Below are positions 1-45,400 of a DNA stretch of 64,000 bases, piece after piece (the stretch's first letter is position 1; every line of letters begins with the position of its first letter). The stretch spans positions 1 to 64,000 of the forward strand of contig NC_014755.1 in the NCBI RefSeq assembly GCF_000183725.1. Reading direction: 5' to 3'. The notes under the pieces were generated by a model. The model searched no databases, was not told where the DNA came from, and worked only from the letters and a program-made list of their open reading frames with translations. The stretch comes from Sulfuricurvum kujiense DSM 16994. Its GTDB lineage: Bacteria; Campylobacterota; Campylobacteria; Campylobacterales; Sulfurimonadaceae. Both the position numbers and the translations under genes were made by a program.

Positions 1-63
1 TTTGGATTGCAACCGATATTCGTAACTGCTAAACTTTTACGAACCATCCAACAAGGGGAGACC

Positions 64-1326
64 ATGAGTTTTATACACGAAGAGGATCTATCGGTTGCAG
101 ATACGGAAGTGTTCGCCATTATACAAAATGAGTTTGAGCGACAATCAACCCATTTGGAAATGATCGCCAGTGAGAACTTTACCTCTCCCGCCGTTATGGA
201 GGCGATGGGGAGTATATTTACCAATAAATACGCTGAGGGGTATCCGAACAAACGATACTACGGAGGATGTCAATTTGCCGATCAAGTAGAGCAACTGGCG
301 AAAGATCGACTCTGTAAAATTTTCGGATGTGACTATGCAAACGTACAGCCCCATTCAGGAAGTCAAGCCAACGGGGCGGTTTATGCCGCGTTATTGCAAG
401 CAGGCGATAAGATATTGGGGATGGATTTGCGTCACGGTGGACATTTGACGCACGGTGCAAAACCCAGTTTTTCAGGAAAAAACTACCACTCTTTTACGTA
501 TGGTGTGGAAGCAGATGGAAGAATGGATTATGAAAAGATAGCTCAGATCGCGGAAATTGTAAAACCTAAAATCATCGTATGCGGTGCAAGTGCCTATACG
601 CGGGAAATCGATTTTAAAAAGTTCCGAACCATAGCGGAGCGTGTTGGTGCGATACTCTTTGCCGATATTGCCCATATTGCCGGATTGGTCGCGGCGGGTG
701 AGCATATGAACCCGTTTCCCTACGCCGATGTCGTCACCTCTACAACCCATAAAACACTCAGAGGTCCTCGCGGCGGGGTGATTATGACCAATAACGAAGA
801 GATAGCCAAAAAAATCGACAGTGCTATTTTTCCCGGAATACAAGGTGGTCCTCTGGTGCATGTCATCGCCGCAAAAGCGGTGGCGTTTGGAGAGGTTTTA
901 CACCCCTCATGGAAAGAGTATGCCAAAGCGGTTAAAAGCAACGCAAAACTTTTAGGGGAGATTATGAACCAAAGAGGGTTTCAGCTCATCAGCGGAGGAA
1001 CCGATAATCATATGATTCTCATATCGTTGATGGACAAAGAGTTTTCAGGTGAAGAGGCAAGTGTGGCGTTGGAAAATGCCGGTATCACCGTCAATAAAAA
1101 TTCGATCCCCTCCGATCCCCGCCCTGCTTCGTCTACCTCAGGTATACGCATAGGAAGTGCCGCATTAACGACACTGGGAATGAAAGAAAAAGAGTTTACC
1201 CTGATCGCGCATAGAATCAGCGATGTTTTAGATGACATACAAAACATCCCTCTTCAAATGGAGATTAAAGCGGAGCTCGAAACTCTTTTGAAGGGTTTTA
1301 GAGTCTATAATTATGCAACCTATTAA
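64..1326 (+). CDS. glyA: Serine hydroxymethyltransferase
   Basis: PLP enzyme that converts serine and tetrahydrofolate to glycine and 5,10-methylene-tetrahydrofolate, the main entry of one-carbon units, in the cytosol. The 420-residue length is normal for the family. Visible motifs are the N-terminal ASENFTS, the substrate-binding [13 protein letters not shown] block, and [13 protein letters not shown], in which K230 is the Schiff-base lysine. The start at 64 is preferred over an upstream in-frame codon because an AAGGGGAG ribosome site lies just before it. The AraC-MGMT-GNAT gene begins 9 bases downstream, so the two are probably cotranscribed. Family identity is certain. Whether this is the only copy in the cell or an extra plasmid copy cannot be seen here. 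Confidence 0.97.
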
Positions 1327-5693: not shown

Positions 5694-7745
5694 TTATTTT
5701 CCTTTCACTGCTTTAACTCTCAACCTGACATAATCAACATGCCAACCGTCGTTTTCATCGTACAACTTCGGTTTCGTAATCCTACTAACCTCTTCTTTAA
5801 ACACACTAAACTCTTCGCGACTCAAATGAGCCGTTACCCCATTGGCAAAAAGATCAAGCCAGTTGGCAATATCATCCACTGGGGTTGGTCGTGGGATTAA
5901 TTCGATGTATTCTACTCTAAAACCGCACGACTCCAAGAGTGTACGATATTCTTTAATACTCGGGAAGTACCACGGGTCTTCAAACACTCCAAATTCAGGA
6001 TGATTTTTAAACACCTCTTTCATTGCATCGACGGCTGTTTTACAATTACCTTCCCCTCCAAACTCTGCGACAAATCTTCCATTAGGCTTCAATGCTTCAT
6101 AAATGTTTCTAACGGCGGTTTCACTCTCTTTTACCCAGTGAAGCACCGCATTGGAAAAGACCGCATCAAATCGGTTTTTAAACTCCAACTCTGTAACACT
6201 CATTACCGTTGCATCAATCCCTTTTGCACGTGAATTTTTTACCATCTCGTGACTCAAATCGACACCCGTTACTTTCGCACCGCTCTTTTGGATTTCAAGT
6301 GCCAACGTCCCCTCTCCGCATCCCAAATCCAATATTACCTCTCCCTCTATCGGAGCAAGCAAGTCAACGACGGGCAATGCTAAGGTTGAGACAAACGACG
6401 CATGTTTATTGTATTCCTGTGCATTCCAACTGTTTTCATGACGTTTCATCATCCCCTCATAAATCCCTAGCACCTCGTCACTGCTGATTTCACCGCCTCG
6501 TTTTTGCGAAATACGTTTTACCTCGTCGGCAAGTTTCGTCTGCATATCGTTGGGGACATCGATACCGTATATCTCTTTTAACACATACGCCACTCCCCCT
6601 TTGCCCGATTGGGAGTTGATACGGATAGAGTCTTTATACTCTCTGCCAATGTCACGCGGATCGATCGCCAAATAAGGCACTTCCCATGTGGGGCTGTTTT
6701 GCTCTCTGTGGTGTTCCATCCCTTTTTTGATCGCGTCTTGGTGGGTACCTGAAAATGCGGTATAGATCATCGAACCCACATACGGATGACGCTCGGCTAC
6801 GCTCATACCCGTGATGCTCGTGATACGGCTTAATATCGCATCGACCTTTTCAACTCTCAAACACGGATCGATGCCCTGCGAAAAATAGTTGAACGCCAAC
6901 GTGATCAAATCAACATTCCCTGCCCGCTCGCCATTTCCAAGAATCGTCCCCTCCACTCTCTGTGCTCCTGCCAATACCGCCAACTCCGAACTTGCTACTG
7001 CACATCCTCGGTCATTGTGCGGATGGACGCTGATGATGACGCTCTCACGATTTTTTATATGCTTGGACATCCACTCGATACGATCGGCATAGATGTTCGG
7101 TGAACATGCTTCCAAAGTATTGGGAAGATTCAAAATCATTGGATGCTCCCGCGTCGGTTCCCACGCTGTAATCACTGCATTGGAGATATCGCGGGCGAAA
7201 TCCAACTCGGTCTGTGAAAAGCTCTCCGGTGAATACTCGAATACTACTTCTCCGCCAAAGTCCTGTGCTTCACGTTTGATACACTCTACCCCCTCTAACG
7301 CCAACGCAATGATCTGCTCACGACTGCGGCGAAAGACGACACTGCGCTGATTGGCGGCGGTCGGATTGTACAAATGGATATTGATCCGCTTAGCTCCGCG
7401 TAATGCCTCAAAACTACGAACGATATGACACTCTATCGAGGGGACAAGGACACCGATAGTGACATCCTCAGGGATTAACCCCTCCTCTATTAAGCGACGG
7501 CAGAAATCAAACTCAGTCTGTGATGCGCTGGGATAAGCGACCTCGATCTCTTTAAACCCAAATTCAACCAACGCTTTAAAATAAGCAACCTTTTGCTCTA
7601 TACCCATAGGGTTTGCTAACGCTTGATTCCCGTCGCGTAAATCGGTACTGACCCAACGCGGGGCAACTGTGGCAGATTTATCCGCCCACTCTCGTTTATC
7701 CAATGTGACCGTTGGATACGGTGTGTATTTTGTATGCGTGTGCAT
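5694..7745 (-). CDS. leuA: 2-isopropylmalate synthase fused to a SAM-dependent methyltransferase
   Basis: Residues 1 to about 435 are a LeuA of the mycobacterial/yeast type: metal-site STDLRDGNQAL near the N-terminus, EVAYPSASQTEFDF, SVHPHNDRG, and the SGKGGVAYVLKEIYG linker subdomain. LeuA condenses acetyl-CoA with 2-oxoisovalerate, the first committed step to leucine. Where family members carry a C-terminal leucine-binding regulatory domain, this protein has a class I methyltransferase (436-683) with SAM motif VILDLGCGEGT (470-480) and FDAVFSNAVLHW. The new domain resembles trans-aconitate/malonyl-ester carboxyl methyltransferases. The reading frame is continuous with no sign of an assembly join. 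An upstream leucine leader implies attenuation control. Loss of leucine feedback and methylation of isopropylmalate are inferences. Confidence 0.93.
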   Translation of the reverse strand: MHTHTKYTPYPTVTLDKREWADKSATVAPRWVSTDLRDGNQALANPMGIEQKVAYFKALVEFGFKEIEVAYPSASQTEFDFCRRLIEEGLIPEDVTIGVLVPSIECHIVRSFEALRGAKRINIHLYNPTAANQRSVVFRRSREQIIALALEGVECIKREAQDFGGEVVFEYSPESFSQTELDFARDISNAVITAWEPTREHPMILNLPNTLEACSPNIYADRIEWMSKHIKNRESVIISVHPHNDRGCAVASSELAVLAGAQRVEGTILGNGERAGNVDLITLAFNYFSQGIDPCLRVEKVDAILSRITSITGMSVAERHPYVGSMIYTAFSGTHQDAIKKGMEHHREQNSPTWEVPYLAIDPRDIGREYKDSIRINSQSGKGGVAYVLKEIYGIDVPNDMQTKLADEVKRISQKRGGEISSDEVLGIYEGMMKRHENSWNAQEYNKHASFVSTLALPVVDLLAPIEGEVILDLGCGEGTLALEIQKSGAKVTGVDLSHEMVKNSRAKGIDATVMSVTELEFKNRFDAVFSNAVLHWVKESETAVRNIYEALKPNGRFVAEFGGEGNCKTAVDAMKEVFKNHPEFGVFEDPWYFPSIKEYRTLLESCGFRVEYIELIPRPTPVDDIANWLDLFANGVTAHLSREEFSVFKEEVSRITKPKLYDENDGWHVDYVRLRVKAVKGK

Positions 7746-7771: not shown

Positions 7772-7798
7772 AAAAAAATGCTGACATATGGACGCATT
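7772..7798 (-). terminator. Possible leucine attenuator hairpin
   Basis: Read on the minus strand, AATGC pairs with GCATT across a 12-base loop and is followed directly by a run of seven T. It lies between the leader peptide stop and the leuA start, as an attenuator terminator should. The stem is only 5 bp, so it is weak; a longer alternative antiterminator pairing was not worked out. Confidence 0.4.
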
Positions 7799-7851
7799 AC
7801 GCCCGATATAGCAAAACTAAAAATGTAAAAAAGAAACGGAAAAAAAGGAAA

Positions 7852-7938
7852 TTACAGGAGTGGCAGCAGGAGGAGAGAGAAGCTCACGATACGGTTGTCC
7901 GTAATGGGTTGTGAAATAGGCATAGTATGACTTTTCAT
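7852..7938 (-). CDS. leu operon leader peptide
   Basis: A 28-codon ORF with a good ribosome site (AAAGGAGAG, 4 bases before ATG). The translation begins MKSHTMPISQ and ends SFSLLLLPLL, so six of its last seven residues are leucine. It lies 107 bases upstream of leuA on the same strand, after a near-consensus promoter. This is the layout of an amino-acid attenuator: ribosome stalling on leucine codons when charged leucyl-tRNA is low would alter folding of the RNA before leuA. The E. coli leucine leader has the same length (28 residues) and four adjacent leucines. Calling it a leader peptide is an inference from position and composition, but a strong one. Confidence 0.82.
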   Translation of the reverse strand: MKSHTMPISQPITDNRIVSFSLLLLPLL

Positions 7939-7965
7939 GGTCTCTCCTTTGTATGTATTGTTGAA

Positions 7966-22938: not shown

Positions 22939-24252
22939 CTATAAATTTTTAATTCTGAGCGATGCAAAAACCTGTTTGTAAAGATCATTCGGAACTTCAT
23001 GTTCTATAGCCAACCGTGTAAAACTACTAAATGCCTCAAGCGCTTGTTCAATAATTTCATTAGCATGTTTTGTGGGTATACTGCACTTAGATGCAAAGGC
23101 CAAAAGATCGTTTCGCTCAAACTGATCTCGTTTGCCAGATAGTGAGATTTGGTGTTGCGCGGTCCACTTTCCAAGCGGATCATACGCATAGGTCATATCG
23201 AACGCAGGTGAGAGTGACCATACTCCACGACGATCCATCATGAAGCCGAAATTTTTGGCATGATCATCTTGATTACGCCCGATGATGTTAAAGACGGCGC
23301 GACGAAACAGCTCATTGAATTCGTTTTGACCTAATCCAAGTTCACGACATGACATGAGTAACTGCTCATACGAGTACACACCGACATGATCTCGATCAAA
23401 ATGTCGCAAGCCTGCCCAAGAAGCATAGTGCTTTTTACGCACCTTTCCATTAATGATTTCACGGTCAAACCGCTCTATCATATAATGAAAATCATCACCG
23501 TCAGAGATGTAGGTTGTTGAGGGAATATCAATTCCACATTCCTTGGCAATCAGAGAATAGATGTATTCGATTCGCGTGATCCCTTTAGGGTCTTTTCGCT
23601 CTTTATCGCTGTTGTCATCCGAATCAAACTTCAAAAGCCAGTAGCGTTTATCGGCACCCGCATCCAACGTACCGTCATAAAATCTTCCTTGCGCGTCTTG
23701 GGCTACCAATGCTTTAGATCTTGCCCCTCCGGCACTCGATCCGACACGAATAAGGGCTAACATCTCTTCATACGATGCGGTGGATAATTTGAGATTGAAA
23801 TCGCTCTTTTCGCGTAATACCATATTGGCTAGTTCGTTGAGATGATGAATGTTTAGGGTTCCTCCATCCATTGCCATCGTATCGTTGGTTGATGGCTCAT
23901 ATTCAAAGGCACCCATGCTTCGTTTACCAATATAGGCCAAACGATCCAAAGCAGTAATATCCGATGCAGATAACCCTTTATCGGCAAAGAACCGATCGAT
24001 CAGTTTGTTTCCGAATTTATCGGGGAGCGAATCGGCAAAGATTCCTGGGAGCCCGTGAAAGGTTCTTTGGCTAATAGTTGGGAATGAGTGAATCATAGGG
24101 GGATATTTCATCTCTAAGGGTGAGAGCTGAATATTTGAGGTTGCAAACTCAGGTGCGTATTCAAACGTAGCTATTTCATTTTGCCCGGGAGCGTAACCCA
24201 AATAACCAATTGTCTTGCTCCATAAATTTATTGTAATTACCGGTGCAGCCAT
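22939..24252 (-). CDS. hipA: HipA-family toxin kinase
   Basis: Serine/threonine kinase toxin of 437 residues, normal for HipA. Recognisable segments are FHGLPGIFADSLPDKFGN in the N-subdomain, VGSSAGGARSKA (P-loop-like, with the regulatory serine region), HYMIERFDRE, GRNQDDHAKNFGFM (catalytic Asp/Asn loop) and LSPAFDMTYA (metal-binding Asp). E. coli HipA phosphorylates glutamyl-tRNA synthetase and causes persistence; the target here is not known. The start overlaps the hipB stop by one base (TAATG), the usual coupled arrangement. Confidence 0.92.
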   Translation of the reverse strand: MAAPVITINLWSKTIGYLGYAPGQNEIATFEYAPEFATSNIQLSPLEMKYPPMIHSFPTISQRTFHGLPGIFADSLPDKFGNKLIDRFFADKGLSASDITALDRLAYIGKRSMGAFEYEPSTNDTMAMDGGTLNIHHLNELANMVLREKSDFNLKLSTASYEEMLALIRVGSSAGGARSKALVAQDAQGRFYDGTLDAGADKRYWLLKFDSDDNSDKERKDPKGITRIEYIYSLIAKECGIDIPSTTYISDGDDFHYMIERFDREIINGKVRKKHYASWAGLRHFDRDHVGVYSYEQLLMSCRELGLGQNEFNELFRRAVFNIIGRNQDDHAKNFGFMMDRRGVWSLSPAFDMTYAYDPLGKWTAQHQISLSGKRDQFERNDLLAFASKCSIPTKHANEIIEQALEAFSSFTRLAIEHEVPNDLYKQVFASLRIKNL

Positions 24253-24866: not shown

Positions 24867-26222
24867 ATGAAACTTAAGACTATCCAGATAAGCATCGAAA
24901 ATTGTCTAAAACTTACCCATCGATACATTACTATGGAAACACTGTATAAAGATGTTGATCCCCAAATATATTCCTATACAATGAAAAAAATTGCACCTGA
25001 TTTTATGTATGAGGTGTTGAAGATCCCACTAATAATTTTTTTGCGTGATGAGGGTAACGTTACAGCTAAGGCTTCATCTGAAATAAAAGGATTGGAAAAT
25101 TTATTTAGTCTTTTTGTTCTGGATATAACCTATATTTTCAATCCAGAATTATTGATTTTATACAGGCTATTTTTACAAAAAAGTGAAGAAAAAAATTTGT
25201 CTGATATACAGATCAATGTCATTGTTATCAATGATGAAATAGCAAAAGAAGTAAATTTTGACAGATACCAAAAAATGAAACTTTTGATGGATTTCATTTC
25301 ATATACAAATCCTAATTCTTCTTCACTAGATGTTGATCTATTGGAAAAAATTTATGGTGAAAATGAATTAGATTTTTTTGGATCCACTAGCATTAAAAAT
25401 ATATTTCCTAGAAAAAGAAAAGCTTCAATCGTAAAGTCCAAATCTGATATTGAAAATCCTTGGCTAAATCTATATCTTCAACCCAATAAAACATACTTGA
25501 GTTTTGACAATGCATCCAATCCAAAAAAAGAAATTAAACTGATTCATTGTCCGATTTGCGCGATAGAGCACCCATTAAAAGATGATTTGATAAAAATTGA
25601 AGACAATAATATTCACTTCAAGTGCTCTCATGAGAATACGCAATTTGCTAAGTACAATCCTTTTCACATTCCATGCTCATTTTTTTTGCCCGATATTGTT
25701 CAAGAAAATGACACCAAATATCTTCAGAAATTTTTTAAGAATAATGTCCAACCTGTAAAATCTAATGGTAGCTATATGATCCAAATTATCAAGCCATATG
25801 ATGATATCGAGTATATCCCATTAATAAAATATATTCATAAAAATATAGGTATTGCACATGATAGATTTTTACCAAAAATACTTTCTAACTTTTGTTGTCC
25901 AATATGCAGCCAAAGTTTTTTGATAAATTTTACTGATGAGGACCAACAAGATTATATTGATATTGATAACAATCTATATACCCACTATGCAAAGTTGTTT
26001 CAGCTAAATGGTAAAAGGGTCGTATTTAATTGCACCCATCAGGGCACACCATTTGATATTTATAAAAAATTTGATGTTAAATCAATACCAGATATGAATT
26101 TGAAAGATCAATCAATATTGATTTCTGAGCGTTATTCCTCTAATTATTTGGATGGGAAAAAAATTGTTACTTGGAGTTTAAAAGACAAATTGCAAATATT
26201 TGACATGGTCAATTATCTATGA
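24867..26222 (+). CDS. Unknown protein with two zinc-ribbon-like repeats (recombinase module gene 1)
   Basis: A 451-residue, AT-rich gene. The C-terminal half contains two similar units: HCPICAIEHPL then HFKCSHENTQF, and about 110 residues later FCCPICSQSFL then VFNCTHQGTPFDIY. Each is CPxC plus C-x-H, a likely zinc site, so the region looks like an internal duplication. The N-terminal 200 residues are helical and unrecognised. It overlaps the large recombinase gene by 4 bases (ATGA). A DNA-binding accessory role in recombination is inferred only from context. Confidence 0.6.
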   Translation: MKLKTIQISIENCLKLTHRYITMETLYKDVDPQIYSYTMKKIAPDFMYEVLKIPLIIFLRDEGNVTAKASSEIKGLENLFSLFVLDITYIFNPELLILYRLFLQKSEEKNLSDIQINVIVINDEIAKEVNFDRYQKMKLLMDFISYTNPNSSSLDVDLLEKIYGENELDFFGSTSIKNIFPRKRKASIVKSKSDIENPWLNLYLQPNKTYLSFDNASNPKKEIKLIHCPICAIEHPLKDDLIKIEDNNIHFKCSHENTQFAKYNPFHIPCSFFLPDIVQENDTKYLQKFFKNNVQPVKSNGSYMIQIIKPYDDIEYIPLIKYIHKNIGIAHDRFLPKILSNFCCPICSQSFLINFTDEDQQDYIDIDNNLYTHYAKLFQLNGKRVVFNCTHQGTPFDIYKKFDVKSIPDMNLKDQSILISERYSSNYLDGKKIVTWSLKDKLQIFDMVNYL

Positions 26223-28582
26223 CATTTGATCTATTCGAATACGAAAACCAAACACATGCGCAAAATCAGATTGCATTTAATTTCAAATCTATTTTTCTTA
26301 GTGCGGAGCAGTCTACCAGGGATCTCTTTTTAGAAAGTATTCAACAAAATCAAAATGATCTAATTGAGTATTTGGATGGTCTCATCAGGGGTACCGATGA
26401 GTTCGAGCCGGTACATAAACAAGTCAGAGAAAAATATATGATCGACAAAAAGCAGTTTGAAGATTTCCCGATCGCGACGCTCTATTATAAGCTCCCTATG
26501 GATGAACGTTTGTCCGATGCTTCAGCGACCGAAGTGTTGAAGTTTCATATCAAATACCTCAAACAAAAACAACATATGAAAACCCATGAAATGTCTGCGA
26601 CCATCCGGCATTTTGTTCATATGATAGAGATCCTTGAATATATGCGTAAGAATAAAATTCGAATTGATCGGTTTGTGAAAAATGACTTTAAAAACCTTCT
26701 TTTATGCATTGATGACGACCATGTTATAGTCAAAAAATCTCAACATCATACCAAGGGTTCAAATACTAGCGAAAACGAAGACGATCAGAATGATGCAAAT
26801 GAAGGTAATGCTGATAAAAAAAACGAGCCGGAGACAAAGGAGAATAAGGAGTCTTACTATGTTGTGAGTGTCAATGGTATTTCGTATCAAATAAGCAGTA
26901 ACTTTACATTAAAAAATATCGATTTGAAGAGGGACATCAAAGCGCTCAAAAGCTTCTATGGGTTTACCAAAAAAACATATAAACGTTCTTCGGACCACAT
27001 AGATACTTCCGCGGAAAACCATGAGTATTGTCCAAGTGAATCCTACACCACCTCAGTTAAAAAAATGCCAGCCGCTCAAGAAGCCGAAGAAGAGGCAGAA
27101 GAGGGTATTGCCCGCAGGCAAAGAGTTCAGGTGAGTACGGGAACAAAGAAGAATACAAAAACATTGCAGAATAAAAAGATTCTTGCCATTTCCGCCGCGA
27201 TCGCGAAGAATAAGCTGCAACTGCCCTCTTTATATACGCTTCCAAGTATAGGATTTCTATCCGAGTTTTGCCGATTTTTGATCAAAAGAATGAAAGGGGA
27301 TGAGGATCAATATTATTGCGGGTTGTTTATCATCTCTGTGGTCATGGGGATAAAGCCGGAACAATGTTCGAAACTTTTTTTTGGTAATCAAAAATTCGTG
27401 AGTGACAACAACACCGTAGAGCTTCAAATCTCAGACGAATACTTCGCCAAATACGATCGCTTTGATGAAGAAGTTGGGATTGTCACCACCGATGCAATCA
27501 CCTATAAAATCCCTTTTGAACTCATGCATTTGATTCTGTCTCTGTATGACATCAAAGTACCCTATGAAGAAGAGGAATTTCGGAAAGTAATCCGAACCAA
27601 AAAAAAGGATTTTGACAAAAAATTACACATCAATTTTCAAAAAATCTGGCACTGCTCGATGGTTCACAAAAAAATTCTCTATAAAAACATCAGCACAGAA
27701 ATAATGCTTGCTACCAAGAACATCGATAAGAACGCCAGTCCGATCGTTTATTACACCGCCGCTTCATCTCAGATGGATGAGTATTCCAACTGGCTGATTG
27801 AATACACAGAGCTTCTGGGGATTAAAGCGCATTTACAAGTGCATATTTTTGAGAAGGCATTCAGCAATGAACGGGTTATTAATTTCGATGAAGCAAAAAT
27901 AATCGGTTCGCGTAAGCTTGTCAAGAAAGATGTATTTATCGAATTCTTGCAAAATATCGAAAACCTGTTAAAAGAGCGCAGGCTTGATAAATATGCGAGA
28001 TTCAATATCTATTCGATCCATGTCCGCTATACCCTGAGTCTATTGTTGGGTACCAGGGATTTTGGAAAATCAGTCGACCTTGGCAGGATCAGCTGGAAGC
28101 ATAAGGTGATAATGATCCAGGAAAAAGGGAAAGAGACAAATACCGGCTTCAGGTGCATTCCTCTATCTGAATTGGCGCAAACGATCATTCAAAACTACCT
28201 CAAGACACTGGAGAAGTTTGGAATAACAACCAAATCGGTCGTTCTATTTGATGGCAAAAATACCGTTCCCCTGACGCTTGGTACCATGCAAAAAGCCTTT
28301 AAGGCATTTCGTTTTTATAAACAGCATACGGAACTGTATGAGATGCTCAATCTGGTTCCTCTAAACCTTGGGCGCCATCTGATTACCTCTATGGCGACGG
28401 AAGCGGGAATTCGTCAAGATGACATGAACGCATTCATGGGGCATGCGGTCAACGGGGGAGAACTGCTCGGACGGTTCAGTATGCATGACACCCAAAAATA
28501 CCGCAATACCTTTGGTACGATCCTAAATGAAATTGCTTGCATTTACAGGCTCAAGGACATCCATGAACATGCTGCTCTTTGA
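26219..28582 (+). CDS. Large tyrosine recombinase-like protein (module gene 2)
   Basis: A 787-residue protein with an acidic, disordered linker (residues about 175-210, rich in E, D, N) and a C-terminal tyrosine-recombinase fold: LLGTRDFGKSVDLGRISW (box I Arg), EKGKETNTGFRCIPLS (beta-hairpin Lys), NLGRHLITSMATEAGI (box II, with N-L-G-R-H in place of H-x-x-R-H) and FMGHA (box III His). At the place where the nucleophile is expected, GRFS has Phe; the next Tyr is 8 residues later in HDTQKY. Recombinase ancestry is clear; activity is uncertain. Coupled to both neighbours by overlaps. Confidence 0.75.
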   Translation: MTFDLFEYENQTHAQNQIAFNFKSIFLSAEQSTRDLFLESIQQNQNDLIEYLDGLIRGTDEFEPVHKQVREKYMIDKKQFEDFPIATLYYKLPMDERLSDASATEVLKFHIKYLKQKQHMKTHEMSATIRHFVHMIEILEYMRKNKIRIDRFVKNDFKNLLLCIDDDHVIVKKSQHHTKGSNTSENEDDQNDANEGNADKKNEPETKENKESYYVVSVNGISYQISSNFTLKNIDLKRDIKALKSFYGFTKKTYKRSSDHIDTSAENHEYCPSESYTTSVKKMPAAQEAEEEAEEGIARRQRVQVSTGTKKNTKTLQNKKILAISAAIAKNKLQLPSLYTLPSIGFLSEFCRFLIKRMKGDEDQYYCGLFIISVVMGIKPEQCSKLFFGNQKFVSDNNTVELQISDEYFAKYDRFDEEVGIVTTDAITYKIPFELMHLILSLYDIKVPYEEEEFRKVIRTKKKDFDKKLHINFQKIWHCSMVHKKILYKNISTEIMLATKNIDKNASPIVYYTAASSQMDEYSNWLIEYTELLGIKAHLQVHIFEKAFSNERVINFDEAKIIGSRKLVKKDVFIEFLQNIENLLKERRLDKYARFNIYSIHVRYTLSLLLGTRDFGKSVDLGRISWKHKVIMIQEKGKETNTGFRCIPLSELAQTIIQNYLKTLEKFGITTKSVVLFDGKNTVPLTLGTMQKAFKAFRFYKQHTELYEMLNLVPLNLGRHLITSMATEAGIRQDDMNAFMGHAVNGGELLGRFSMHDTQKYRNTFGTILNEIACIYRLKDIHEHAAL

Positions 28583-30716
28583 AAAAGCGCTCGAGCGGCT
28601 GAACAGCCTTGAATCCTCGGTCCCGAAGCAATATGAGGCACACTATAGAGCATTATTAGAGGTATTGAGCTTGGAGGAATCTGATAAGTTGCTCTCGGTC
28701 CGGCACAACAAATTCACCCTTACAGAAAAATTTATGATCCATCTATCCGGATATGAACAGATGAGTTCGCTTCAAATAGGGTCAAATACAATCTTTGAAT
28801 TTGTCGAATATCTCAAAAATCATGGCTACATAAGCAATAGCTCCGCGTCATACGCGCTTAAAAAGCCGCTGCGTCAGATCAACCGTTATCATCATTTTTT
28901 GCCGCCAAAGTATTTCTATCTTGCCGATCAGGTGGAAGATTTTGAGGAATATGTCTTAAATGAACTGACGAAAACTGATCCTCGGCTAGCCGTCTATATC
29001 GCCTTGGTTTATTTTGAAGAGGATGGCTGGCGCGAAGAAGCGTTACGCAGGGCATCGCTTAATAATTTTTTTGTCATCCATGACCAGGGCTACCAATGCA
29101 TCATTGAAGATCCACTGGAAGATGGCTTTAAAAGGTTGAAAATCTTTCGGATCAAAAAAGCTTACGCGCTTCTGGCACGGTTCAAAGAGATGGGCACAAC
29201 ACCGCTCTTTGATAATCCGAACAGAATGAAAAAAGAGTCTAAAAGAGAAATTGAAAGATATTTTGGCAAAAAAATCTCTGTCGATGCGATCCGTAATGCC
29301 TTTATTTTCAATGCAATGATGACTCAACCACCGGCGATCGTAGCGTGTCAATATAAAACGGTGACTACGGTTCCACTCTGCCTTGGGGAACTGGCTTATT
29401 TGTACCCTCAGCAGATTCCGGCCCACTTGCTTGAGATCGAGGTATACAATAACGGACTGATTGGTCAAACGTCTGAGGTTGAGGGCTTGGACGATTACGT
29501 GGATGAGATGTTTATCGATACGGAATTTGACTATAACTTGAAGATAGCTCCTTTATTCACATTCAAGGAAGGGAAACAATGGGTCAATCTGTTGAAAACA
29601 ACGCCAAGGGATTTGAACCGAGAAACACTGGAACAAATCAAGAGCCATTTTGAGAAGGCAATCCAATTCGAAAAAGATATTTCGACGTTGATGGTCTTGT
29701 ATTATATCCGTGATGTGTTAGGCAGAATATACATAGGAAAAAAACAAGCCGAAGGTATCAATATAGCGACCTTTATCAAATATATAGGATTATTGCGTAA
29801 ACACTTATTTACCCAGATAAGCGATTTTGAGCATATAGATGAAGCGGTTTTATCCAATATTCTGGATCCATACAAAGCTAGCGGCGCAGCATTGAATTCA
29901 ATAAAACAGCTCAATTTCTTAGTGTCTGATTTTTTAAAATTTCATAATGTCAATTTCCAAAAATATAAAATCAAGGCGAAGCATATCCCTAAATCTCTTG
30001 TCTTCCCAGAGGAGATAGATTTGATATTGGAGGAAATTGAAAATTTTTATAAAAAAGCGGCGGCTGAACATAAAAAAAGGTATTCAAAATTCTACAAATA
30101 CATCATTCGCCAATATCAGTCGTTTGTCCTACTGGGTTATTACTCAGGTATGCGCCTCAATGAGATTAGAACCAGAAGGCATGCCGATATTATTCGAGAA
30201 CCTTTGTATCTATATGATCGTAGGATCAAAGATGCAGTGTATTCGGTAGACATCAATGTTGAAGGTCTAAAAACAGATTTAGACAGTAAAACAGCCAATA
30301 GTTTTAAAACCTCGAACGCCAGCAGACGGGTAGGGTTTGTCATTTCCAACGAGAAACACGCGAAAATATTTGATGCATTTTTGAAAGAGAAATCTAAGAA
30401 AAACGAGATGTATTTGTTTAAAGATTTTGACCTGGCCGGACACTCAAAATTTGATAGCGTTATGAAGCTTTCAAAGGCGCAGATTCTGAATGAAATCATT
30501 TCGAAGGTGACGAAAAGGTATGCCACTCTTCATTCGTTGAGGCATTCCTATGCCACATGGTGGTTCATGCAAAGAATCATGAGTGGCCAAAATTTTAATG
30601 ACGCGCTTTTGAATTTTTCGATCGAAATCGGTCACGTAACTCCGGACGTTACAATGAGAAGTTACATCCACTATGAATTAATTGAAGAGGTTATCGCACA
30701 TGAGAGACGAAATTAA
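28563..30716 (+). CDS. Large tyrosine recombinase (module gene 3)
   Basis: A 717-residue protein; start at the ATG with AAGGA upstream, overlapping the previous gene by 20 bases. The catalytic domain near the C-terminus is complete: GYYSGMRLNEIRTRR (box I Arg), TLHSLRHSYATWW (His-x-x-Arg), IEIGHVTP (box III His) and TMRSYIHYE (Tyr nucleophile, 10 residues after the His). The long N-terminal half has no motif I recognise and is far larger than a normal integrase arm-binding domain. Multi-recombinase elements (RIT elements, Tn554 tnpA/tnpB, gamma-mobile-trio) are the nearest known parallels. Confidence 0.82.
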   Translation: MNMLLFEKALERLNSLESSVPKQYEAHYRALLEVLSLEESDKLLSVRHNKFTLTEKFMIHLSGYEQMSSLQIGSNTIFEFVEYLKNHGYISNSSASYALKKPLRQINRYHHFLPPKYFYLADQVEDFEEYVLNELTKTDPRLAVYIALVYFEEDGWREEALRRASLNNFFVIHDQGYQCIIEDPLEDGFKRLKIFRIKKAYALLARFKEMGTTPLFDNPNRMKKESKREIERYFGKKISVDAIRNAFIFNAMMTQPPAIVACQYKTVTTVPLCLGELAYLYPQQIPAHLLEIEVYNNGLIGQTSEVEGLDDYVDEMFIDTEFDYNLKIAPLFTFKEGKQWVNLLKTTPRDLNRETLEQIKSHFEKAIQFEKDISTLMVLYYIRDVLGRIYIGKKQAEGINIATFIKYIGLLRKHLFTQISDFEHIDEAVLSNILDPYKASGAALNSIKQLNFLVSDFLKFHNVNFQKYKIKAKHIPKSLVFPEEIDLILEEIENFYKKAAAEHKKRYSKFYKYIIRQYQSFVLLGYYSGMRLNEIRTRRHADIIREPLYLYDRRIKDAVYSVDINVEGLKTDLDSKTANSFKTSNASRRVGFVISNEKHAKIFDAFLKEKSKKNEMYLFKDFDLAGHSKFDSVMKLSKAQILNEIISKVTKRYATLHSLRHSYATWWFMQRIMSGQNFNDALLNFSIEIGHVTPDVTMRSYIHYELIEEVIAHERRN

Positions 30717-31764
30717 GCAAGCCATTCTCAGTAAAAACAGTTTTTTGATTTATGGATATGACCAGGGATATAACATCGATATTTTTAACGAGCTAACGGA
30801 AGGGTTAGAGTCACGTCACAACGAGATTTTTTATTTTGATATGGTGAGCTATGGGGTCAAACCGAATTTTAAAAAGGAATTGAATCGAGTCCCCCAGCAA
30901 TACAATTTATTTGAGTTTTTTAAAGAAAAAGAGATCTCGAAAATACACTTTGACAGATATATCCAAGATATCTGCGATTGCCTTCATGCCGAACTGTTTG
31001 ATACAAAAGTCGACGGACAAATTTATTTGAAACACCTGCTTGAGGCTGTTTACCAATCTGATGACAGAACCACTTTTGATGTAGATGAACTTATCAAGCT
31101 TCTTGGCAATATTATCAATACTCCAAAATCCAGGATAGGTAACAAATTTTTTAAAACGCTTGATCAGTTAGACAGTTTGAAATCAAAATATCCAGATGAT
31201 TATTTTACAGATTCTGATTTCGATAAACTGGCTAAGGATGCAAGACTGCTATTGGAACAGTATCTTTTTGAGGATCCCAGCAAAAGAAATTATTCAGATG
31301 TCGTATTAAAATGGTCAAATTATGATTTAGGCGTGAAGTATTTTACTAAATTGTTAGAGAGAATGAATATTCCTTTACTGAAGAAATTTAGTAATGTGCC
31401 CAAAACGGTACATGGTAAAATAAACCATTTTCAAATTGATCACTATACAATGCGGTGTAACTATCTAGGTATGGTTTTATCTTCTATAGTCCGAAAATTG
31501 AAAATATACGATTCTTCGAATAAGCCATTAATAATCATTAACGGCAAACAAAAGGATCTTTTTAAAAGCGTAAGTATGGATATAGAAGAACTATTTCATC
31601 ACTGTAGAGTTTGCTTCATTATCAGCAGCATAGAAGAGCTTGATGCGAGAGTTAATTCTTTTGTAGATGTCAAAATTTGCTCCGATAAACACAAAAATTT
31701 ATCTTTACAAGATACTTTCATGGAAAAACGTATAGAAAATAATTACAGCGTCTACTATGATTGA
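30700..31764 (+). CDS. Unknown protein, possibly degenerate ATPase (module gene 4)
   Basis: A 354-residue protein; the ATG at 30700 overlaps the recombinase by 17 bases and has GAGG upstream. The N-terminus SFLIYGYDQGYNIDIF and C-terminal strands KPLIIINGKQKDLF and VCFIISSIEELDARV look like the strands of an ATPase fold, but no proper GxxGxGK[ST] Walker A is present. No family recognised. It closes the four-gene unit; the AT content rises through this gene. Confidence 0.55.
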   Translation: MRDEIKQAILSKNSFLIYGYDQGYNIDIFNELTEGLESRHNEIFYFDMVSYGVKPNFKKELNRVPQQYNLFEFFKEKEISKIHFDRYIQDICDCLHAELFDTKVDGQIYLKHLLEAVYQSDDRTTFDVDELIKLLGNIINTPKSRIGNKFFKTLDQLDSLKSKYPDDYFTDSDFDKLAKDARLLLEQYLFEDPSKRNYSDVVLKWSNYDLGVKYFTKLLERMNIPLLKKFSNVPKTVHGKINHFQIDHYTMRCNYLGMVLSSIVRKLKIYDSSNKPLIIINGKQKDLFKSVSMDIEELFHHCRVCFIISSIEELDARVNSFVDVKICSDKHKNLSLQDTFMEKRIENNYSVYYD

Positions 31765-32105: not shown

Positions 32106-33242
32106 ATGAAACGCTGGATATGGGAGCAAGAGTCTTACCCCGATTTTACCTACGATTTATTCCGACTTGAGCGTTTAATTCAAGAGGTGTCATTGGAGCA
32201 GGGGTATCTGATCGCATTGACTCAGACAATGGACAGTGACAATATTGCCCAGCGACAGCTCGAAGCGCTGATGAGCGAAGCGATCAGTACCTCTGCGATT
32301 GAGGGGGAAATGCTTAACCGCGACAGTGTTAAAGCCTCTATCGCACGAAAGCTTGGGCTCTTGGGAATTGATTCTTTGAAAGGAGATGAGAGCACTGATT
32401 ATTTGATAGAAATTCTCATCGATGCCAATACAAATTATGATAAGCCTCTAACTCTTGAGCGATTATTTGGATGGCACAATGCACTCTTTCCACGAGGATA
32501 CAGAGGATTGTCTAAAATCAATGTCGCTGAGTTTAGAGGCGAAGATCCGATGGAGGTTATCGGCGGAGCGGCAGGTAAAGAGAAAACCTACTATGTTGCA
32601 CCCCCGCTATCGATTCTCGAACACGAGATGGAAAGATACCTGCAATGGTTTAATACCACACCGCCCAGTCTAATCAAATCGTGTATCGCTCATCTTTGGT
32701 TCGTCATCATCCACCCTTTTGATGATGGTAACGGTCGAATTGGACGTGCAATCACTGACTTGGTCTTATCTAAGATTGAAAAATCGAGTGTTTCAAGACT
32801 CTATTCGATGTCCAGTGCGATCAACAATGACCGTAATGGTTATTACAAAGCGTTGGAAAAAACGACGGGGTATGTTCATAAAGAATCAAACCATCTGGAT
32901 ATTACCGATTGGTGTGAGTGGTTTCTCACAACGCTTCATACAGCATTGATCGATACGAAAAAGAAGTTAGATTACATTGTTCAAAAAACGACGTTTTGGG
33001 ATAAGTTTCGCGAGTATGATCTCAATCCAAGACAAACCAAAGTACTCAATAAAATCCTAGATATGGGGGCTGAGAACTTTCAGGGTGCGTTGAGCAAAAA
33101 GAAATACATGACAATTGCCGATGCTTCATCTACAACAGCTTCCAGAGATATCACTCAACTCATCGAGATCGGATGTATCCGACATATCGAGGGGACACAG
33201 GGACGAAATGTACGCTATGAGATTGTATTAGAAATCAAATAG
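32106..33242 (+). CDS. Fic-family AMPylase
   Basis: A 378-residue Fic protein. The catalytic loop HPFDDGNGRIGR (H203) is canonical, so AMP transfer from ATP to protein hydroxyls is expected. The inhibitory helix motif STSAIEGE (S61-E66) lies N-terminal in the same chain, making it a class II, self-inhibited Fic. The N-terminal 100 residues are of the DUF4172/Fic_N type and the C-terminus carries a winged helix (MTIADASSTTASRDITQL). Target unknown. It stands alone; the small minus-strand gene at 33246 is convergent, 3 bases away. Confidence 0.9.
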   Translation: MKRWIWEQESYPDFTYDLFRLERLIQEVSLEQGYLIALTQTMDSDNIAQRQLEALMSEAISTSAIEGEMLNRDSVKASIARKLGLLGIDSLKGDESTDYLIEILIDANTNYDKPLTLERLFGWHNALFPRGYRGLSKINVAEFRGEDPMEVIGGAAGKEKTYYVAPPLSILEHEMERYLQWFNTTPPSLIKSCIAHLWFVIIHPFDDGNGRIGRAITDLVLSKIEKSSVSRLYSMSSAINNDRNGYYKALEKTTGYVHKESNHLDITDWCEWFLTTLHTALIDTKKKLDYIVQKTTFWDKFREYDLNPRQTKVLNKILDMGAENFQGALSKKKYMTIADASSTTASRDITQLIEIGCIRHIEGTQGRNVRYEIVLEIK

Positions 33243-38082: not shown

Positions 38083-40305
38083 ATGAAAAATACTATTACC
38101 CTGCTCGGATTTCCACGTATCGGAGAAAAAAGAGAACTCAAATTTGCATTAGAAAGTTTTTGGAAAGGAACTATTGGCTTCGATGAACTGGAGACAATTG
38201 CATCTGATCTTCGAAAGCGCCACTGGAACTTACAGCGTGATTCCGGTATCCAAAAAGTTGCCATTAACGATTTTAGCTTCTACGACACTATGCTTGATAT
38301 CATGGTAACCCTCGGTGCTACACCCGAACGCTTTAGCGATATATCCGACCCAATACGTCGATATTTTACGATGGCACGGGGAGATGAGAGCCATGTGGCG
38401 ATGGAAATGACCAAATGGTTCAACACCAACTACCACTACCTTGTTCCTGAATTGCACGATCAATTTGTGTTCGGCGCAGTGAATGCCGAAAAAATCATCC
38501 ATGAGTTTAACGAAGCCAAAGCTCTCGGATTAGAGGGGTGTATTCAGCTGATCGGTCCAATGACATTTTTTGCTCTCTCAAAATGCTCCGAATCGGTACG
38601 TCAAGCGCTGTTTGATAAGGTAATAGCACAATACGTCGCTTTATTAGAAACATTGCAAGCTTTAGATGCCGAGATCATAATACATGAACCATCACTCGTG
38701 TGTGATCCTACGCCTCACGATCTATCCTTGCTCAAAATAGCGTATGATCGGCTGGGAACACTTGCGCCTCTTTGGGTAGCAACCTATTTTGAACATTCCA
38801 ACGAAGCGACTGCCGTTTTGGTGCACACTCCCATTAAAGGGCTTTATCTTGATTTTGTTCACGGAGAGAAAAATATCGAATCGCTTGAGGTGTTAGGCAA
38901 AAGTGATAAACACGTGAGCGTCGGGATCATAAACGGTCGCAATGTCTGGAAAAACGATCTTTCCGCTTCACTAAAGACCTTGAATACAATCGCAGATTAT
39001 ATTCCCAAAGAGCGTCTGAGCCTCAGCAGTTCATGTTCACTTTTGCATGTCCCCTATACGTTGCGACATGAAACAACATTGGATGCAAATGTGAAGACAT
39101 TATTAGCCTTTGCCGAAGAGAAGCTCACAGAACTATCCGCTCTCTCAAAAGCATTTTTTGACAATGAAGAAATCGTATATCAGCGATATGACCCCTCTCG
39201 CACCGACCCTGCGGTTCAAATACGACTCTCTGCATTGCAAAGCGGTGATTACAAACGTACTTATCCGTTTCCCCTTCGACAAGAAGCAGCGCACGATTTG
39301 TTCGATCTGCCGATTCTACCGACGACAACCATCGGATCGTTTCCCCAAACCGCAGACATCCGCAAAATTCGTCAAGAGTTCAAAAAAGGGCTCATCTCCC
39401 GAGAAATCTATGAAATCGAAATGAAAAATGGGATCCGTGATTGCGTCGAATTTCAAGAGTCGATTGATCTGGATGTCTTGGTGCACGGGGAGTTTGAGCG
39501 TAACGATATGGTGGAGTATTTCGGTGAACAACTCAGCGGATTTGCTTTTAGCAGCAATGGCTGGGTACAGAGCTACGGAAGCCGATGTGTCAAACCACCA
39601 CTACTTTATGGTGATGTGAGCCGACCGTACCCAATGACGCTAGAATGGAGTCTATTTGCCCAAAGTCTTACAGCGCGATCGATGAAAGGGATGCTCACGG
39701 GACCCGTAACGATTCTCAACTGGAGTTTCGTCCGTGACGATCAGCCCCGCTCCCTCACTTCAACTCAAATCGCCCTCGCTATCCGCGATGAAGTAGATGA
39801 TTTGCAACGCTCCGGGATCAAAATGATCCAAGTGGACGAAGCGGCGTTCAAAGAGGGGTATCCGCTGCGTCGTGAAAAACGTGCCGAATATGAAAAATGG
39901 GCATTGGAGAGTTTCCTCCTATCCACCGCCGTGGCGGAACGTGATACCCAAATCCATACCCACATGTGCTACAGCGAGTTTACCGATATCATCAAAACCA
40001 TCGAAGCGATGGACGCGGATGTAATCTCAATCGAAACTTCTCGTAGCGGTAACCGTCTCCTCAAAATCTTCGCCGAGGTAGGGTATGCACAGGAAGTGGG
40101 ACTGGGAGTCTATGATATCCATTCTCCTCGGATCCCTAGTATTGAAGAGATGGAAAAACAAATCCATGCACTTCTCGAAGTCCTTCCCGCCGCTCAGCTC
40201 TGGATTAATCCTGACTGTGGTTTGAAAACCCGTGGATGGGCAGAGACCAAAGCGGCATTAGAAAATATGGTTGAAGCGACCAAACGCGTTCGTCAAAGTC
40301 TCTAA
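38083..40305 (+). CDS. metE: Cobalamin-independent methionine synthase
   Basis: 5-methyltetrahydropteroyltriglutamate-homocysteine methyltransferase, the last step of methionine synthesis, 740 residues (E. coli 753). All zinc ligands are in place: H627 and C629 in THMCYSEF, E651 in SIETSRSG and C712 in NPDCGLKTRGW, each exactly 14 lower than the E. coli numbering. The N-terminal half carries the duplicated barrel (LGFPRIGEKRELKFALE). AAGGAAA ribosome site. It stands alone, with a hairpin after the stop. Together with glyA it links serine-derived one-carbon units to methionine and SAM. Confidence 0.97.
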   Translation: MKNTITLLGFPRIGEKRELKFALESFWKGTIGFDELETIASDLRKRHWNLQRDSGIQKVAINDFSFYDTMLDIMVTLGATPERFSDISDPIRRYFTMARGDESHVAMEMTKWFNTNYHYLVPELHDQFVFGAVNAEKIIHEFNEAKALGLEGCIQLIGPMTFFALSKCSESVRQALFDKVIAQYVALLETLQALDAEIIIHEPSLVCDPTPHDLSLLKIAYDRLGTLAPLWVATYFEHSNEATAVLVHTPIKGLYLDFVHGEKNIESLEVLGKSDKHVSVGIINGRNVWKNDLSASLKTLNTIADYIPKERLSLSSSCSLLHVPYTLRHETTLDANVKTLLAFAEEKLTELSALSKAFFDNEEIVYQRYDPSRTDPAVQIRLSALQSGDYKRTYPFPLRQEAAHDLFDLPILPTTTIGSFPQTADIRKIRQEFKKGLISREIYEIEMKNGIRDCVEFQESIDLDVLVHGEFERNDMVEYFGEQLSGFAFSSNGWVQSYGSRCVKPPLLYGDVSRPYPMTLEWSLFAQSLTARSMKGMLTGPVTILNWSFVRDDQPRSLTSTQIALAIRDEVDDLQRSGIKMIQVDEAAFKEGYPLRREKRAEYEKWALESFLLSTAVAERDTQIHTHMCYSEFTDIIKTIEAMDADVISIETSRSGNRLLKIFAEVGYAQEVGLGVYDIHSPRIPSIEEMEKQIHALLEVLPAAQLWINPDCGLKTRGWAETKAALENMVEATKRVRQSL

Positions 40306-42416: not shown

Positions 42417-45400
42417 TTAATTTCCGAGACCTAAAGGCTGCATAAACTCTTTTTCTTTATCAATCGCAATTAAATTGTAAACTCTCTTTGAATAGTTGGT
42501 AAAATCATAAATCCCATAAAAATTAATATGACTCCAGTGAATAATTGAACTGTTTTTAAGTGCTGTGAGGATTTCATCTTTCTCGGTGCTATTTTTAGAA
42601 TGTTGTAATTTTTTGGTAAGATAAAGATAATTCCAAAGGATTATAGCATTTTGAATAAGTCGTTTTGAGTTATTTGCAACGTTTTGCTCTTCGGTAGTTG
42701 CAACCGTAAACTCTTGATTGTTTCCAAAAAATACCGCTTTTGAAAATCGATTAGAGGCTTCTATCTTATTGAGCTGCTTTTCTATCCGTTGGCGAAGCTT
42801 TACATCATCGATATAATTGAGCAAAAAATCGGATTTTATAATCTTTCCAAATTCTTTCAACGCAGTGTATAGTTTGTGCTGTCGTGAATAGGAAGTGAGC
42901 CTTTTTAAGAGCTGTGTAGCCGTTGTTTTTCTCTCTTTAATTGTTACGGCAAACCGTAAAATATCATCCCAACTCTCTTTGATTATTTGAGTATTGATTT
43001 TTCTTTTAGGTGCCAATTTATAACCTAAATTATGATAGTGTTTTGGTGTAAAAAAGCCGTAAAGCTGTTGATCTTTGAAATTTTTAATTCTTGGACCAAA
43101 ATTGAATCCAAGAATATTTGTTAAACCAAATATTAGCTCTGTATAGCTGTGGCTATCCCCGGAATGTAAATCGCTCTTGACTGTCTCATTGTGCAACAGT
43201 CCATCAATAACATACCCCGATTCTCTTTCACTGACATTGATAACAGTGGAATGAAACAGGCGATTTGATTCGTCAATAAAAGTATAGGTGACAACTCCTT
43301 TGTCGGCACCAAAGTATTTGTTTGAGTGTCCTGCATTAGTAGAATCGATATTTGAAGCAATGGAGTATTTTTGCCCATCACTTGAAGTATGATTGATATC
43401 GGTGTGATGTCTTACTATTTTTACAAGCTCCAATTTCTCCATATATGCCACAATTTTGTCATTTGCTTCGGTCGTATTATCCTCTGAAAAGTACCATATT
43501 TTGGTATTATCAAGCTGGTTTTCGTTGATGCCTTTTGATATTTTCCCCATCCGTGAAAGGCTTAGGTTGCATCCATATCCAAGTATGGATGCAAGTAATA
43601 GATTGTGATTGCTTTTAATGCGACTTTGAGAGTAGTGTTGAAATGATGATAAAAAATCTGTTTCCTTATCAATTGAATTGAGAACATCAATCACGGATAG
43701 GTACTCTTCCGTTGGGAAATATTTTGCGAGAGGATTTTTTTCTTCATCTTCATCCTTTTCCAGCTTAGGAGTTTTGAGGATGTAAGAGTCGTCTGATGCC
43801 GTAAAATAGGTGTTTGTACCATTTAAAATATTATGATTTGTTTCTTTGTAGCTTGCTTCAACTTTGTCTTTGACGGTGTTCATAAAGGTATCAAACGGTT
43901 TTAAATACTCCATTTCATGCTTCGTTAGAAGTAGATCTTTATTTTTAATCCAATCATCTTTATCAATCATATAGTCATCAAAGTTTTTGTATCTGTAAGA
44001 GTATTTCAAATTAAGAGTTCCATTTTTAATGGCATCGCTTACATGAAAGAAGAGTAATATTTTATAGAGTGAGACTTTAAATTTATCGCCATCAAATACA
44101 GCGATACGCTCTTCTTCATCTAAAAATGCTTTAGGTACTTTATTGGTGAGAGTGGGATTGTTTTTGAAATAGTTAATGGCTTCAATAAGATTTTTATTCG
44201 ATGCTTTTTCATCAAACTCAATCGCTTTTAAAATCCCCGAAAGCTTGCCTTGCAGCGATACTGACTTGCTCTCTATAAAATCATACTTGCATTCAACAAC
44301 AGTGTCGAAAACTTTTTTCTCTGTAAGAATCTCATTGAGTGCCAGTGTCTTTTGCTGAAGAAGTTTCTCTATTGTAGCTACTTTTTGAACAGCACTTAAA
44401 TCGCTGTCTTTGACAATAGCTTCAATATCATTTAGTGTTGAAAGATTTGCATTCTCAAGTGACTGTATGACCCGATTTTTATGAGGTTCTTGTTCAAAAC
44501 TATACTCTTTTTGGGAACGAAGTGAGGAGTTTTTAGCCGTCTGCACCGTTGATATAAATCTATCTATGAGATTATCGTTACGGATCAAGTACTGATAATA
44601 TACAAATGATAGAAGTAAGAAGTTAGATTCTACATCTTTCTTTCGCTTTACTTGAAAAACTTGGCTTTTTTCAATCCATTTAGCATGATACTGGGCTATT
44701 TTAGGGGTGATTCCTCCCGATATAAAGATACTCTCCAAGATATTGAATTTTGATTGTATCGTTTTAAATTTTTGAAGACTTACCATCATGGCAGCTTTTT
44801 TAGTAGAGTGCTCCAGTATCTTATAGTGCGTGAGACTCCATCTGTTTTTATAGTCTCCATCTTTTTGTAAAAATTCATCTAGTATATTCAGTTTTTGATC
44901 TTTAATGAATGGCGTTAATCTCTCTAGAATATCTCTTTTTTGAGAATTGATGGCGACTGTGATAATGCGATATAACTCCGTGTAACTCGGCACTTCGATT
45001 GATAGCTTTTTAGAAAACTCAACAAGAGCATAAAAGATTTTTTTACGATGGGTAAAATTATTCGCCAACGTGATAGCTTCTTTTACAAGGATATCTTTTA
45101 TCTCATAGGTGTATTCGTTAATTCGCAGGTGCTGCTTAATGATCTGCTGATATCTATAAAGTGTACTTTTTGTTAAACTTACAGCATCTGTATCGATTGA
45201 TATTTTTAAAATATCGGAGGCAATATAATCTAAATTTTTATCATCATTTAAATCTGTGAAGAATTTATTTGTTGCTTTGAAATAGCCATACAGCAGCACA
45301 AAATAAATTTGATTAAAATCGATTTCTATTTTTTCGAGTAAATTCTTTGGGATTGAAAAATAAAATTTTTGCTGGTTAAAATTAAATATTGGTTTTTGAT

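Follow-up and report, generated by a model that had tools for sequence, protein, structure and literature searches.

A LeuA-methyltransferase fusion gene behind a leucine-codon leader in Sulfuricurvum kujiense and related Campylobacterota

The fusion gene and its genomic setting

As listed in Table 1, the window (the whole stretch of 64,000 nucleotides analysed) contains a gene in which a LeuA half is joined to a class I SAM-dependent methyltransferase half. The gene is one uninterrupted frame, as the preliminary description had stated, with an ATG start and zero internal stops, and both of its parts were also confirmed as complete. In the LeuA half, the HMGL-like barrel (residues 29-303, E 5e-67) and the post-catalytic IPMS_D2 linker domain (residues 326-390, E 4e-33) were detected with Pfam. 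Residues R37, D38, H124, E174, T210, H241, H243, E273, H335 and Y358 map onto identical residues of Mycobacterium tuberculosis LeuA, which we take from the structure of that enzyme to be its metal, catalytic and substrate residues. Among the NCBIfam models, the subfamily NF002991 is matched with 655 bits (cut-off 455). The score for the equivalog TIGR00970 is 581 bits, under the cut-off of 697, as expected because the regulatory domain is absent. Pfam gave zero matches to LeuA_dimer, the leucine-binding regulatory domain, in the 683-residue protein, and the C-terminus is formed by the methyltransferase. The assignment of the LeuA half to the type-2 (mycobacterial/yeast-type) enzymes, as a predicted 2-isopropylmalate synthase, is supported by these matches. 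The barrel, the post-catalytic domain and the catalytic residues examined are shared with type-2 2-isopropylmalate synthase (NF002991/TIGR00970, structure 1SR9); unlike that enzyme, the fusion lacks the leucine-binding domain, carries a methyltransferase and the signature residues of a short clade, and is apparently leader-controlled.

The methyltransferase half matches Methyltransf_11 (residues 472-559, E 2e-22, 80 bits against a cut-off of 21), and its SAM-binding motif VILDLGCGEGT is intact. AlphaFold predicted this half alone with a pLDDT of 94; for the full-length fusion the pTM was 0.50, too weak to place the two halves relative to each other.

Table 1. Features of the fusion locus in the window
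Feature	Positions	Strand	Evidence
leuA-methyltransferase fusion gene, 683 aa	5694..7745	-	ORF list, translation, orthologues
LeuA half, residues 1-435	6441..7745	-	Pfam domains, residue mapping, clade signature
Class I SAM-dependent methyltransferase half, residues 436-683	5697..6440	-	VILDLGCGEGT motif, FSNAVLHW signature, Pfam, fold
SnoaL/NTF2-like protein, 118 aa	5337..5693	-	ORF list, Pfam, loci of relatives
Leader peptide MKSHTMPISQPITDNRIVSFSLLLLPLL*, Leu-codon run, strong Shine-Dalgarno AAAGGAGAG upstream	7852..7938	-	conserved in all Sulfurimonadaceae copies
Terminator-like hairpin and T run, TGCTATATCGGGCGTAATGCGTCCATATGTCAGCA-TTTTTTT	7772..7813	-	predicted, conserved in 19 loci

The genome comprises 2.82 Mb in five contigs. 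The contig that bears the fusion is most likely a plasmid, because ParA/ParB and DnaB-like genes are found on its 71,513 bases. An ordinary LeuA of 565 residues with a regulatory domain (54% identity to the LeuA half) is retained on the chromosome; therefore, the fusion is an extra, second LeuA copy. The SnoaL-like protein is probably co-translated with the fusion, since its ATG directly abuts the fusion stop codon, an arrangement repeated in two further loci (L037 and L039). No DNA nearly identical to the locus was found among public plasmids, a collection that may leave out records of the same genome, and the search of plasmid proteins returned only LeuA-type matches and one gene pair from Bradyrhizobium. 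Other genes were also observed on the plasmid. Two belong to one-carbon metabolism, serine hydroxymethyltransferase and cobalamin-independent methionine synthase (window 7-1326 and 38083-40305). Four large consecutive frames (451, 787, 729 and 360 aa; 24867-31764) have no Pfam match, and a HipA-like protein, a Fic-domain protein and a Tn3-family transposase are encoded at 22939-24252, 32106-33242 and 42417-45446.

Leader peptide and terminator-like hairpin

The predicted leader frame lies about 190 bases before the fusion gene and ends in …SFSLLLLPLL*. One set of leader criteria was applied to all lineages, to housekeeping genes and to shuffled sequences. By these criteria, a leucine-run leader precedes all 18 short or fused Sulfurimonadaceae genes, 9 of 24 Arcobacteraceae genes (one doubtful), 1 of 19 housekeeping leuA genes (probably by chance) and 0-2% of the shuffled upstream sequences. 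All of the Sulfurimonadaceae leaders have a Shine-Dalgarno sequence. The combination of leader peptide and terminator hairpin is present before 18/18 of the Sulfurimonadaceae copies and absent before housekeeping leuA. In Sulfurospirillaceae, 10 of 11 genes follow leaders with Val and Leu runs; the two runs are combined in the Sulfurospirillum upstream regions (L215-L228; ...FSNASLVVVLLLKLR), suggesting that these leaders may respond to both amino acids.

The consensus fold contains three pairs with compensatory changes overall, two of them in the terminator-like hairpin. Folding of the entire leader was not more stable than that of shuffled sequences (z -0.76), an antiterminator pairing was resolved in neither the leader fold nor the consensus fold, and the hairpin was not listed by a simple terminator scan. 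A known RNA leader family was rejected, as Rfam gave no match for the leader. The ribosome binding site and the Leu-codon region of the leader are complementary to each other (GGAGAGA/TCTCTCC, window 7852-7951), and both sides of this complementarity are changed in L043-L045 (GGAGAAG/CTTCTCC). Either a regulatory helix or a side effect of the Leu codons might account for this.

Leucine control of LeuA is classically allosteric. For the fusion gene, attenuation by leucine through the leader is strongly suggested by the codon run and the hairpin, and leucine control appears to have moved to the RNA level. The earlier expectation of leucine insensitivity may thus hold for the enzyme as regards allostery; it apparently does not hold for the gene, whose leucine-codon leader and hairpin suggest that it is not blind to leucine.

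Distribution, origin and repeated association with LeuA

The preliminary description had proposed a survey for the same fusion in other Campylobacterota, and such fusions were found. Intact fusions with 72-95% identity exist in about ten other Sulfurimonadaceae genomes (G118, G098 with two copies, G070, G106, G104, G052, G063, G027, G010 and G036), three of which are single-contig genomes. In a sample of 399 Campylobacterales genomes, the family of the fused methyltransferase occurs in 32, and its fusion to LeuA only in Sulfurimonadaceae; the genome samples covered subsets only and included several metagenome bins. Beyond that sample, one of the named genomes, from Arcobacteraceae, encodes a fusion of 679 residues with 58% identity overall. 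Pairwise comparisons within the genus gave dN/dS values of about 0.05 (LeuA half) and 0.06-0.12 (methyltransferase half), and purifying selection acts on both. The idea that an assembly or sequencing artefact united two genes has no finding in its favour and practically no chance of being correct: the same junction recurs in about ten other genomes, some of them single-contig, both halves are under selection, and the orthologous fusions rule it out. Separate genes, which had been named as the sign of an artefact if present in the same species, were seen not there but in other lineages. The open-access literature searched yielded no earlier description of a LeuA-methyltransferase fusion.

In Arcobacteraceae and Sulfurospirillaceae, short type-2 LeuAs (about 435 residues) devoid of the regulatory domain are common, and the housekeeping enzyme there is likely a distinct type-1 LeuA (about 520 residues). 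Phylogenetic analysis of 72 LeuA sequences placed short and fused LeuAs together in a single clade (support 100/99). This clade is marked by NLPNTLE and GERAGN, whereas the long LeuAs have NLPATVE (NLPSTVE in one) and GERTGN; the signature residues in the fusion are N209 and A275, equivalent to A253N and T319A in Mycobacterium numbering. Since the fused LeuA nests in a clade without the sensor, the methyltransferase was appended to an already sensor-less LeuA, and a swap of methyltransferase for sensor domain is ruled out. The notion of a methyltransferase in place of the leucine-sensing domain is therefore correct in that the sensor is absent, but the ancestral short-LeuA clade already lacked it.

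The LeuA half of the Arcobacteraceae fusion groups within the short LeuAs of its own family, and a tree in which all fusions, together with the Sulfurimonadaceae short copies, are constrained to a single clade is worse by 141 log-likelihood units (p-AU 9e-6). The methyltransferase half of the Arcobacteraceae fusion nests among free-standing Arcobacteraceae methyltransferases, in a quick tree that includes one badly translated row (L146). A single origin of all fusions is rejected by the first test and the second tree agrees; therefore, LeuA and methyltransferase were joined at least twice, with the same domain order in both independent fusions. In three loci (L047, L049 and L050) LeuA is kept and the methyltransferase is gone, and in one locus of G118 (L051) the leader and methyltransferase are kept and the LeuA core is deleted. 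The methyltransferase is thus dispensable, as it is missing from those three loci and from 5 of 11 Sulfurospirillum loci. Additionally, G118 holds three derivatives of the locus on contigs C9 (L052), C24 (L051) and C29 (L036), comprising an intact fusion, an internally deleted short LeuA with a second type of methyltransferase, and a methyltransferase only; this assembly is flagged with 5% contamination.

This second methyltransferase subfamily, here MT2, has 30-37% identity to the fused one. In Sulfurospirillum it lies 15-28 bp behind the short LeuA in 6 of 11 LeuA loci, with 5 of 11 lacking it, and all full MT2 loci of that genus (9/9) are directly behind LeuA. Two Sulfuricurvum genomes, G118 and G084, also carry MT2 (about 60% identity) behind a short LeuA; that LeuA has an internal deletion in G118 and is intact in G084, where the MT2 start overlaps the LeuA end and the contig ends thereafter. 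Methylovulum psychrotolerans encodes a full-length LeuA (547 residues), and the gene 9 bp behind it encodes a methyltransferase related to the fused one. The adjacency of the two genes in other lineages supports the LeuA-methyltransferase link. The Methylovulum pair (L083 2604-6744) has apparent nifH and nifD genes next to it, as well as an Lrp-like regulator; these identities come from reading the sequence only. Permease or exporter genes adjoin several loci, of the TauE/SafE family in L036, L049 and L052 and of the LysE family in Sulfurospirillum.

The family as a whole is mostly free-standing and far from leuA, with LeuA nearby in only 2 of 75 related methyltransferase loci examined. Members in Campylobacterota were also observed behind an isochorismatase-like domain (L062, L152 and L154; frames of about 436-441 aa) and, in L077/L078, behind a different N-terminal domain (about 190 aa). 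Judged from these frames, the family is a putative versatile C-terminal fusion partner, so it is possibly a general-purpose domain. Being mostly unlinked to leuA and having other partners, its link to LeuA is a recruitment and not a property of the family. On a Bradyrhizobium plasmid (p1, L254 8052-10085), a class I methyltransferase gene lies immediately downstream of a homocitrate-synthase-like gene; the homocitrate-synthase-like protein scores 396 bits with the NifV model (cut-off 463).

Relatives of the methyltransferase and candidate function

The nearest solved relative of the methyltransferase half is 3CCF from Anabaena variabilis, a free-standing, uncharacterised protein (38% identity, TM 0.87). 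The record of 3CCF gives cyclopropane-fatty-acyl-phospholipid synthase as the molecule name and putative methyltransferase as the entry title. In sequence scores, 3CCF (203 bits) stands above juvenile hormone acid methyltransferase (JHAMT, 64 bits) and Tam (32 bits), and the nearest group of MT2 likewise comprises 3CCF, JHAMT and Tam. The predicted fold is similar to those of JHAMT (TM 0.73), Tam (0.69) and BioC (0.68), at a sequence identity of about 15-23%; all three of these enzymes methylate carboxylates. The suggested profile comparison with Tam and BioC showed that the half belongs to neither family, its scores missing the curated cut-offs of the Tam models (64 vs 320 and 52 vs 297 bits; bacterial Tam models only) and of BioC (64.5 vs 185 bits).

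The reading that we favour, with a confidence barely on the positive side of even, is that the gene encodes an accessory, leucine-leader-controlled isopropylmalate synthase whose fused methyltransferase methyl-esterifies an acid of the isopropylmalate pathway during leucine shortage. A shortage of leucyl-tRNA would act through the leader-peptide attenuator to allow expression of the accessory synthase, which, without the usual domain, would escape feedback inhibition by that route. The LeuA half would convert acetyl-CoA and 2-oxoisovalerate to 2-isopropylmalate, and the methyltransferase half would use SAM to methylate a carboxylate of 2- or 3-isopropylmalate, or of isopropylmaleate. The resulting mono-methyl ester, being less charged, might leave the pathway or the cell. 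Methylation of an acid is proposed because of the intact LeuA site, the selection on the methyltransferase half, the JHAMT-, Tam- and BioC-like folds, the leucine-run leaders, the repeated coupling, the exporter neighbours and the precedent of yeast Tmt1. The genomic association favours an isopropylmalate-pathway acid as the candidate substrate, and the occurrence of LeuA and methyltransferase as fused or neighbouring genes suggests that a leucine precursor may deliberately be made into a methyl ester. Weighing against this reading are the mostly free-standing members of the methyltransferase family, their other fusion partners, the dispensability of the methyltransferase, and a leader fold that showed no antiterminator and was no more stable than in shuffled sequences.

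In yeast, the trans-aconitate methyltransferase Tmt1 methylates 3-isopropylmalate and isopropylmaleate (PMC3197675), and the methyl ester of 3-isopropylmalate accumulates in leucine starvation and is a signal for invasive growth (PMC4684349). The proposed chemistry would be shared with Tmt1 (PMC3197675, PMC4684349), which is likened here by chemistry only and which, unlike the fusion, is a free-standing eukaryotic enzyme. An extension that we hold to be improbable is that an isopropylmalate methyl ester is made and released by bacteria, either to signal leucine starvation or as overflow; the fusion, leaders and exporters would then be the counterpart of Tmt1 signalling, having arisen through fusion on at least two occasions and through operon formation on several. 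What stands out at this locus is a second LeuA without the allosteric domain, which apparently relies on leader attenuation in its place and whose association with a methyltransferase recurs. Under leucine shortage, a core intermediate of biosynthesis is predicted to be drawn off as a methyl ester, in a possible bacterial setting for isopropylmalate methyl esters, which are known mainly from yeast.

The main rival to esterification of a pathway acid for release is detoxification, followed by an unrelated substrate or an altered alkylmalate. Tam is thought to protect aconitase from trans-aconitate. Here, the methyltransferase would esterify an off-pathway dehydration product or trans isomer arising when unregulated LeuA pushes flux through isopropylmalate isomerase, and so protect the isomerase. 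Side products are plausible since the feedback domain is absent from LeuA, and Tam and BioC are among the nearer folds, but the score of the half is far under the Tam cut-off. The cluster also has no isomerase gene, with a leuC-type gene located elsewhere, on the chromosome, and the exporter genes near several loci fit release better. In the pantaphos cluster of Pantoea ananatis, the Tam homologue HvrF is encoded beside the isopropylmalate-synthase-like HvrC and is proposed to clear trans side products (PMC7858074). This pair is like the fusion in placing an isopropylmalate-synthase-like enzyme and a Tam-like methyltransferase in one gene cluster; it differs in that the genes are separate and belong to a phosphonate pathway, and no leucine leader is mentioned in the passages of the source that were covered (PMC7858074). 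On balance, such damage control appears unlikely.

We regard it as similarly doubtful that the substrate of the methyltransferase is unrelated to leucine, the fusion only bringing the gene under the leucine leader or being a neutral join of two mobile cassette genes. The loci do sit among mobile small-gene cassettes, members of the family have other fusion partners in Campylobacterota, and in G118 a methyltransferase-only derivative has lost the LeuA core but remains behind the same leader. However, two independent fusions have the same order, and two methyltransferase subfamilies as well as a third, gammaproteobacterial arrangement all choose LeuA.

Finally, the short LeuA might, like plant MAM synthase, have changed substrate and supply another alkylmalate to a small specialised pathway; the methyltransferase and the SnoaL-like protein would then be its tailoring enzymes. 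Truncated IPMS gave rise to MAM synthase in plants (PMC6635470). Tomato IPMS3, which is truncated and feedback-insensitive, and the MAM synthases of Brassicaceae are likewise second IPMS copies without the regulatory domain that feed specialised products (PMC6635470); they differ from the fusion in belonging to plants and in having no fused methyltransferase. The SnoaL-like partner gene and the Bradyrhizobium pair of homocitrate-synthase-like and methyltransferase genes are in agreement with this proposal, and the fixed substitutions of the short clade, A253N and T319A, adjoin conserved active-site residues. We nevertheless judge it rather unlikely, as the direct substrate and metal ligands examined all match leucine-type LeuA and the leader reads leucine.
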